Below, in pieces: positions 40,070 through 41,931 of a DNA stretch of 64,000 nt. Below the pieces are notes generated by a model that was not told where the DNA came from, did not search any database, and saw only the letters and a program-made list of their open reading frames with translations. Each line of letters opens with the position of its first letter. Within the stretch, counting starts at the first letter, position 1. The position numbers and the translations under genes were made by a program. Source of the stretch: an uncultured Pelagibacteraceae bacterium (GTDB lineage: Bacteria; Pseudomonadota; Alphaproteobacteria; Pelagibacterales; Pelagibacteraceae); contig CACDRY010000002.1 in the NCBI GenBank assembly GCA_902555275.1, positions 118,388 to 182,387 on the forward strand, read 5' to 3'.

Positions 40070-40204
40070 ATGATAGAAATACATAAAAAATATATAAATT
40101 GGTGGAGAGAAAAACTTAATCTTTCAAATTATGAATTATTATGGATTACTTTTATTAAAGGTTTGATAATTGGAGTACTTTTATATCATTTTTTTATTAC
40201 TTAA
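40070..40204 (+). CDS. Small hypothetical single-TM protein (44 aa), not in the supplied ORF track
   Basis: Own translation: MIEIHKKYINWWREKLNLSNYELLWITFIKGLIIGVLLYHFFIT; stop TAA overlaps the rnhB ATG (TAATG). Confidence 0.6.
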   Translation: MIEIHKKYINWWREKLNLSNYELLWITFIKGLIIGVLLYHFFIT

Positions 40205-40782
40205 TGAGAAAAATTATAGCTGGAGTTGATGAAGTTGGTAGAGGAAGTTTAATTGGTCCAGTGTATGCTGCAGCTGTAATTCTTAAAAAAAATATTAGAA
40301 AGAATGAGATCAAAGATTCAAAGAAGTTAACTAAGATTGAGAGAGAAAAATTAGCAAAATTTATAAAAAAAAATTCTACTTGGGCAATAGGATCTGCCTC
40401 AGTTAAGGAAATAGAAAAACTAAATATTTTAAGTGCTAGTCTATTAGCCATGAAGAGAGCTATAAAAAAACTAAAAGTTAAACCTAATTTAGTACTTATT
40501 GACGGGAATAAATCACCAGAATTAAGTAATTATCTTATTAAAACAATAATTAAAGGAGACCAAAAAATTAAAGAAATATCAGCAGCATCAATAATTGCAA
40601 AAGTTTCAAGGGATAAACTGATGCTCAAAATGTCAGAAAGTTTTAAAAAATATAAATGGGATTTAAATGCTGGTTATGGAACTAGAGATCACATTGATGC
40701 TATTAGAAAATATGGAGTAACTAGATTTCATCGAAAAACATTCAATCCTATACACAACATATTGAGTCACAGAAAAAAATAG
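40204..40782 (+). CDS. rnhB: Ribonuclease HII
   Basis: IAGVDEVGRGSLIGPVYAAAVIL, AASIIAKVSRD. Confidence 0.96.
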   Translation: MRKIIAGVDEVGRGSLIGPVYAAAVILKKNIRKNEIKDSKKLTKIEREKLAKFIKKNSTWAIGSASVKEIEKLNILSASLLAMKRAIKKLKVKPNLVLIDGNKSPELSNYLIKTIIKGDQKIKEISAASIIAKVSRDKLMLKMSESFKKYKWDLNAGYGTRDHIDAIRKYGVTRFHRKTFNPIHNILSHRKK

Positions 40783-40840
40783 TAACAAGTAGACTCAAAA
40801 TAATTCAATCTCAGGTTGACGGAGACTCTACTCTGGAGTC
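40764..40840. promoter_or_regulatory. Cluster of four GANTC sites upstream of the ccrM-type gene
   Basis: GAGTC 40764, GACTC 40792, GACTC 40824, GAGTC 40836; the first lies inside rnhB 3' end, the last two form AGACTC-N7-GAGTCT. Confidence 0.6.
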
Positions 40841-40857
40841 TAATTAATAATTAAAAA

Positions 40858-41931
40858 ATGAGTAATGAAACTTTAAAAAACAAAATTATTAATGGAGATA
40901 GTTTAGAGGAATTAAAAAAAATTCCTGATGAAACTTTTGATCTTATTTTTGCTGATCCCCCTTACAACCTTCAATTAAAAAAAGAATTAAGTAGACCGGA
41001 TACATCTAAAGTAGATGCTGTGGACGATAAATGGGATCAATTTGAAAGTTTTAAAAGTTATGATGAATTTACTTTTGATTGGTTAAAAGAATGTAAGAGA
41101 ATTTTAAAAAAGAATGGATCAATTTGGGTAATAGGTAGTTATCACAATATTTTTAGAGTGGGTGCTACAATCCAAGATTTAGGTTTTTGGATACTAAACG
41201 ATGTAATTTGGAATAAAAATAATCCAATGCCAAATTTTAGGGGAACAAGGTTTACTAATGCACATGAAACACTTATTTGGGCATCAAAAAGTGAGGGGTC
41301 GAAATACACTTTCAATTATCAATCATTAAAATGCTTGAATGATGACCTCCAAATGAGATCTACATGGAACCTTCCAATCTGTAATGGCAAAGAAAGATTA
41401 AAAAACAATGGAAAAAAAGTCCATTCTACTCAAAAACCAGAAGCGTTACTCCATAGAATAATATTAGCCTCATCAAATAAAAATGATTTTATTTTAGATC
41501 CATTTTTAGGATCAGGTACCACAGCTGTTGTTTCTAAAAAATTAGGTAGAAAATATTTTGGAATTGAAAAGGAAAAAAATTATTTTGATGCTACAAGAAA
41601 AAGATTAAACAATACAGATATTATAAAAGATGAATATCTAGATACGCTTCAAAATAATAGATCAAAACCAAGAATTCCTTTTGGATCATTAGTTGAAATG
41701 GGCTTAATTAAACCTGGAACAGAAATTTATGATCAGAAGAAAAAAGTAAATGCTAAAATTATGGTGGATGGAAGTATCAAGTATCAACAATCTGAGGGTT
41801 CAATCCATAAAGTTGCAGCAAAAATTATTGGTGCAGAAAGTTGTAACGGATGGACATTTTGGCATTATAAATCTGGAAATTCTTTAAAGCCAATTGATGA
41901 TTTGAGACAAAGATTAAGGCCTGCAAATTAA
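40858..41931 (+). CDS. ccrM: CcrM-type adenine-specific DNA methyltransferase (GANTC predicted)
   Basis: Beta-class order: DPPYNLQ, then FxGxG-like DPFLGSGTTAVV; extra C-terminal domain (SLVEMGLIKPGTEIYDQKKKVNAKIMVDGSI) typical of CcrM. Confidence 0.92.
   Translation: MSNETLKNKIINGDSLEELKKIPDETFDLIFADPPYNLQLKKELSRPDTSKVDAVDDKWDQFESFKSYDEFTFDWLKECKRILKKNGSIWVIGSYHNIFRVGATIQDLGFWILNDVIWNKNNPMPNFRGTRFTNAHETLIWASKSEGSKYTFNYQSLKCLNDDLQMRSTWNLPICNGKERLKNNGKKVHSTQKPEALLHRIILASSNKNDFILDPFLGSGTTAVVSKKLGRKYFGIEKEKNYFDATRKRLNNTDIIKDEYLDTLQNNRSKPRIPFGSLVEMGLIKPGTEIYDQKKKVNAKIMVDGSIKYQQSEGSIHKVAAKIIGAESCNGWTFWHYKSGNSLKPIDDLRQRLRPAN

Follow-up and report, generated by a model that had tools for sequence, protein, structure and literature searches.

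What purpose is served by the GANTC sites that lie immediately ahead of the gene for the very enzyme expected to modify them, in SAR11, the most abundant bacteria of the ocean? CcrM, an adenine methyltransferase, and GcrA are paired as conserved epigenetic factors of the alphaproteobacterial cell cycle, and control of ccrM has to our knowledge so far been studied mainly in Caulobacter and its relatives, where it is driven by CtrA. The stretch of DNA analysed, here called the window, is 64,000 nts (G000:C2:118388-182387) of a SAR11-like genome, G000, which is 1.23 Mb in 32 contigs and 83% complete and whose nearest relatives in the database belong to the Pelagibacteraceae; counts given for that genome are from pattern searches. 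In the window the solitary methyltransferase gene ccrM (40858..41931, + strand; assigned by NF050803, Pfam and alignment to 6pbd) is preceded by rnhB for ribonuclease HII (40204..40782, + strand; an ORF matching NF000595 with E=7.8e-71, above cut-off), which in 78 of 90 loci from across the class likewise lies next to ccrM, upstream and on the same strand. The product has the Pfam domains N6_N4_Mtase and C-terminal RAMA, and aligns end to end, C-terminal domain included, with the Caulobacter CcrM structure 6pbd (residues 15-362, E=4.3e-142). Its score against NF050803 (E=1.4e-174, 580 bits) is under the curated NCBIfam equivalog cut-off of 830, though the name of that model, DnaMtaseCcrMCaul, suggests that the cut-off was tuned to Caulobacter. 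Both the full-length alignment and work on cultured Pelagibacter NP1, where reportedly 99.86% of GANTC is fully methylated and an ori-ter gradient is present in growing cells (PMC9516812), agree with GANTC being the motif of the enzyme.

The sites, GAGTC at 40764, GACTC at 40792, GACTC at 40824 and GAGTC at 40836, and the ATG at 40858, are exactly where a first-pass annotation of this DNA had placed them. Its description of all four as just upstream of ccrM holds for the three that are intergenic; the remaining one (40764..40768, unstranded) is within the 3′ end of rnhB and outside the conserved core. The expectation given there of one GANTC per 350–400 bp follows from composition alone. Dinucleotide shuffles lead to an expectation of 175 for the window, and its actual total of 100 (1 per 640 bp) is 57% of that. 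As GANTC is thus avoided across the window, the cluster is more striking than had been supposed. No other four sites of the window lie as close together (77 bp, against 236 bp for the runner-up), and random placement of 100 sites yields an equally tight set of four in 1.9% of trials, so the claim of a local cluster is borne out at P of about 0.02. Taken alone this statistic is moderate, and conservation is far stronger evidence. There are 2–4 GANTC sites in the region upstream of ccrM in 35 of 36 SAR11 relatives, and each of 309 upstream windows of 110 bp from other genes in these 36 relatives has none or one, never two or more.

For a closer view of the conservation, 67 distinct SAR11 ccrM loci were chosen by CcrM protein alone, and the sample was therefore not selected for GANTC sites. 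Upstream of ccrM they have, in order, TTCAATC, four free bases, GTTGAC, two or three free bases, a GANTC (site B), a variable stretch, T-N-GAGTC (site C) and TAAT. In the window the TTCAATC box is at 40804..40810 (+ strand) and is almost invariant in SAR11 family f1; together with the GTTGA of the following element it makes a dyad, TCAA-N7-TTGA. That following element, TTGACG at 40816..40821 (+ strand), resembles a −35 hexamer whose TTGAC is invariant in 162 aligned loci. Sites B (40824..40828) and C (40836..40840), both unstranded, start at +8 and +20 from TTGAC and are kept in 64 and 66 of the 67 loci, respectively. Both fall within the spacer of what looks like a promoter, TTGAC-N15-GAGTCTAAT, with site C overlapping or abutting the −10 and its bottom-strand methylatable A opposite T40839. 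A further site, A (40792..40796, unstranded), 24 bp upstream of TTGAC, is carried by 39 of the 67 and has been repeatedly gained and lost.

A conserved AT-rich −10-like block is present 20 bp past TTGAC. The probable −10 is TCTAAT at 40839..40844 (+ strand), at a spacer of 17 bp and with five of six consensus bases but C at −11; an alternative is TAATTA with a 19-bp spacer. In sigma70 promoters the A at −11 is the base that is flipped. TTGACG-N17-TCTAAT has 10 of the 12 sigma70 consensus bases, lacking that A, and a strict consensus scan returns no promoter, so the register of the −10 is uncertain. From either register the putative message would start about 6–8 nts ahead of the ATG. We infer promoter activity for this stretch. 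The sixth base of the −35 is C or G in 65 of the 67 unbiased loci and never A, the base that makes up 44% of nearby sequence.

The pattern of change on the ccrM tree of the 67 loci tells what is being kept. TTCAATC columns have 0–1 changes and those of GTTGAC none, compared with an average of 9.4 at third codon positions. The fixed columns of site B changed 2, 0, 0 and 1 times, its N column 6 times and the flanking columns 11–20 times, and among the 64 loci with the site the central base is free (A29 C28 G4 T3). Site C keeps its distance from the −35, whereas that of site B varies by 1 bp. That GA and TC are held as N drifts is the mark of selection on a methylation site, and on this comparison site B is under selection as such for a GANTC-reading protein, not merely as promoter sequence. 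Site C gives no separate signal of GA and TC against N, as its N is always G.

The arrangement is almost specific for ccrM. TTGACN{2,6}GANTCN{4,9}GANTC has one match in the 1.23 Mb of G000, at ccrM, and the reversed pattern none. A tighter SAR11 pattern finds at least 119 stretches in GTDB; among the matches listed 115 lie 12–18 bp before a ccrM start, and all listed are in Pelagibacteraceae except one Bdellovibrionales contig. A search of 37 SAR11 genomes gave three twin-layout matches away from ccrM among those listed. One relative, G227 of another genus in the same family, lacks both spacer sites (about 40 bp upstream of its ccrM, site B is absent and site C reads TTTAGTC), and its −35 is TTGACA, as though help from methylation had given way to a stronger −35; this natural experiment on methylation-dependent promoter strength is afforded by a single genome.

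Several wider sets of candidates were discarded. TTGACN{1,5}GANTC occurs 16 times in G000 and, besides ccrM, 14 occurrences are intragenic and one, on contig C9, has no ORF of at least 60 aa nearby, so that no wider set of SAR11 twin-site promoters emerges. Single-site promoters with −10 overlap have six matches in that genome and are convincing only at ccrM. The gcrA gene does not have the same promoter, there being no GANTC within 150 bp of it in G000 and one at −172. Two other places in the genome may be recorded here. On C9, GTTAAC...TTTTGACTCC is present twice at an interval of 181 bp (L113:1306-1506). The DNA around it is richer in GC and has no ORF of at least 60 aa near the match; it may be foreign, or a site at which a mobile element recombines. 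GCGAATCTAAT at G000:C1:16998-17025, with TTGA 19 bp upstream and about 150 bp before an ABC-transporter ATPase gene, is a possible single-site GANTC promoter.

Beyond the SAR11 family, the twin layout is present in 18 of 21 loci of the second family of the order, with site C in all 21, and in 39 of 88 non-SAR11 alphaproteobacterial ccrM loci, from 26 of 59 families (0.00 expected from shuffles). In these 39, site B is 8–10 bp after the T of TTGAC, and site C is at exactly 19 bp in 37. An A comes right after the GANTC in all 40 twin matches from other families, which gives a CA-type −10 at 17 bp, its first base being the last base of the site; the predicted −10 register is clearer there than in SAR11. 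A third GANTC, often within TTGATTCAA, recurs 13–16 bp upstream of TTGAC in class loci (e.g. L147, L285, L309 and L321), and the TTCAATC box aligns with this GANTC-bearing palindrome, which is at the same place in many other alphaproteobacteria. SAR11 family f1 retains only its TTCAA half, as TTCAATC. As about half of class loci are without the twin layout, it has often been lost or replaced, and loss in part of the Caulobacterales was likewise inferred by PMC7987155. The first-pass annotation had named three results that would speak against it, namely lack of conservation in relatives, no excess over background and an enzyme with another motif. None turned up, and the two promoter-proximal sites are kept in SAR11 and in the 26 of 59 other alphaproteobacterial families sampled. 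It had passed over the promoter layout, the GcrA partner and an existing Rfam entry.

That entry, RF01784 ‘bablM sRNA’, matches 40792..40861 (+ strand; 51.3 bits in a covariance scan, with a gathering score of 38) and most of the SAR11 relatives tested. It raises the alternative that the conserved block is a structured RNA, the small RNA of Rfam or a 5′-leader element regulating ccrM, and for this the score, the z of −2.1 for the fold of the spacer and the about 540 marine copies at the same place (PMC2704228) can be cited. Its source, Meyer 2009 (PMC2704228), lists it among the less well supported candidates, reports stem 1 without mutations and stem 2 with few compatible ones, and does not discuss promoters. 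Stem 1 is TCAAT/GTTGA, i.e. the dyad that ends in the −35; its U.G pair is invariant, and the stem as a whole is unvarying apart from rare breaks. Stem 2 is GA.TC of site B against GA.TC of site C with the two Ns an unpaired mismatch, and these N:N positions could pair in 19 of 50 unbiased and 33 of 92 distinct cores. In both sets no stem pair covaries beyond shuffles; the only pair with double changes is kept in 72 of 92, where shuffles average 68.6 and reach 75 at most. The RF01784 structure is unsupported. Moreover, the conserved block extends to within 14 bp of the ATG, so a start past the −10 leaves hardly any leader, and the GANTC layout persists in other alphaproteobacteria where RF01784 fails to match (it has no match there, in the second family of the order or in G227). 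The inverted repeat AGACTC-N7-GAGTCT, to which the first-pass annotation drew attention, does exist in the window but is not conserved. Only 28 of the 67 relatives have complementary N bases in sites B and C, as expected for two independent sites, each palindromic by definition. An RNA hairpin or terminator arising from it was rejected on that count and for want of a terminator and of covariation, the fold z of −2.1 notwithstanding. Two palindromic methylation sites beside a −35 dyad explain the apparent RNA, and we give a functional RNA hardly any credence; RF01784 is probably a DNA promoter misread as two RNA stems and wrongly catalogued as a small RNA. Only marginally more credible is an ordinary conserved promoter, in which GANTC would be accidental to the needs of RNA polymerase or of a factor binding TTCAATC. 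TTCAATC-N4-GTTGAC is almost invariant and has a single copy in each of the 15 genomes having it (31 searched), for which reason a dedicated factor may bind there. Yet GA and TC of site B are fixed with N variable and the site moving by 1 bp relative to the −35, GANTC is at the same two positions in distant families whose sequence is otherwise different, and other genes have no such sites upstream.

What, then, could read the sites? A GcrA is encoded in G000 (C7:62274-62708, E=7.5e-34), and 124 of 150 relatives have one too. In the G000 protein both the region that binds DNA and the one that binds sigma match Caulobacter GcrA structures PDB 7ye1, 5yiu and 5yix; in the GcrA of this SAR11 subclade the latter region is diverged, with CKYMEGHP where the other SAR11 GcrAs read have CKWPIGHP. 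In Caulobacter, GcrA brings RNA polymerase to methylated GANTC (PMC3667746); it is a sigma70 partner with which the polymerase binds methylated promoters more tightly and opens them more readily (PMC7403470). The reading we hold to be probably, though far from certainly, correct is that 40804-40844 is the core promoter of ccrM, that it senses the product of CcrM activity and that it mediates GcrA-assisted, methylation-dependent autoregulation. CcrM would methylate both spacer sites; GcrA would read N6-methyladenine in the spacer, hold RNA polymerase and speed opening of a weak promoter, so that ccrM would be transcribed only from DNA already marked by its own product. After replication, half-methylated sites would tie ccrM output to passage of the fork, and the GcrA-CcrM loop would be closed with no need for CtrA. 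Autoregulation by the gene's own GANTC had been suggested in the first-pass annotation, and as a reading of the conservation it stands well, with the amendment that only two of the four sites make up the conserved core.

Several points count against GcrA-assisted autoregulation. The extended Caulobacter motif YGAKTCK is absent, sites B and C reading AGACTCT and GGAGTCT with neither strand fitting; for this reason the promoter is said to work like a Caulobacter-type GcrA promoter and is not classed as one. The twin layout does not track GcrA, which is undetected in 4 of the 39 genomes that have the layout and in 6 of the 49 that lack it. The strict promoter scan is empty, G227 is a single case, and ccrM of Caulobacter is CtrA-driven and described as transcribed from hemimethylated DNA only (PMC2217572). 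The last point leads to the opposite sign of control: once fully methylated, the sites in the spacer and at the −10 would block RNA polymerase, with or without GcrA, and ccrM would fire only while hemimethylated behind the fork and turn itself off when both strands had been marked, in a homeostatic pulse. Caulobacter ctrA P1 behaves likewise (PMC4287350), a methyl group on the template strand at site C could disturb sigma contacts at the −10 which it overlaps or abuts, and four twin-site genomes, L278 (G322), L281 (G262), L319 (G216) and L321 (G328), have no detectable GcrA. Against this, GANTC between −35 and −10 is the layout of GcrA-activated promoters in Caulobacter, where its mutation lowers, and does not raise, expression (mipZ and podJ promoters by 60–80%, PMC3667746; ftsN to 14%, PMC3885167), and a strong promoter in need of repression would not need an off-consensus sixth −35 base. 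Those mutations, avoidance of the consensus sixth base in SAR11 and TTGACA in G227, where the spacer sites are missing, are why activation is the favoured sign; we infer both it and the dependence on GcrA from the Caulobacter precedent and this layout, and consider the opposite sign unlikely, yet deserving of serious attention. The four genomes may reflect assembly gaps (missing contigs) or a GcrA-independent reader. In the simplest form of such reading RNA polymerase alone would read N6-methyladenine at the −10 edge, an ancestral, class-wide and self-contained ccrM switch to which GcrA was added later; this we regard as doubtful.

That a double-site core promoter has been retained both in SAR11 and in 26 further families of the sample suggests that ccrM was ancestrally under methylation-dependent control, with control by CtrA superimposed. 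If so, SAR11, whose genome is tiny and reportedly lacks CtrA, would run the minimal form of the loop. A second implication is for RNA discovery: what Rfam lists as an ‘sRNA’ family is probably a promoter, and paired palindromic methylation sites can mimic RNA stems. The promoter anatomy and the Rfam correction appear to be new (a search of open-access literature found no paper giving that anatomy or tying it to RF01784), but ccrM as a GcrA target had already been predicted (PMC7987155).

That prediction, by Adhikari and Curtis 2021, places the same gene among the core targets of GcrA across many orders of alphaproteobacteria. It came from location-blind scoring of the YGAKTCK motif in 13 species, without promoter anatomy, and very few high-probability GcrA targets were found in Ca. 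Pelagibacter ubique (PMC7987155). The RF01784 of Meyer 2009 (PMC2704228) is this very stretch of 70 bases, lying between rnhB and ccrM (babIM), there annotated as a structured RNA and here read as a DNA promoter. The closest experimental counterparts are the Caulobacter GcrA/CcrM sigma70 promoters of mipZ, podJ and ftsN (PMC3667746, PMC3885167, PMC4287350), which, like the putative one of SAR11 ccrM, have GANTC between −35 and −10, in an organism that also encodes both GcrA and CcrM, the latter as a solitary methylase. The SAR11 promoter differs from them in having two nearly fixed sites, one touching the −10, in driving ccrM itself, in lacking the extended motif and, in G000, in being found at one gene only. 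Caulobacter ccrM is likewise tied to the GANTC state of its own upstream region (PMC2217572, PMC3973325). The analogy which the first-pass annotation drew with it is nevertheless imperfect, for the Caulobacter gene has CtrA as its activator (PMC3667746, PMC2217572), whereas CtrA is reported absent from Pelagibacter (PMC2877005, PMC7987155), where the spacer sites, presumably methylated in this genome also, would act without it.
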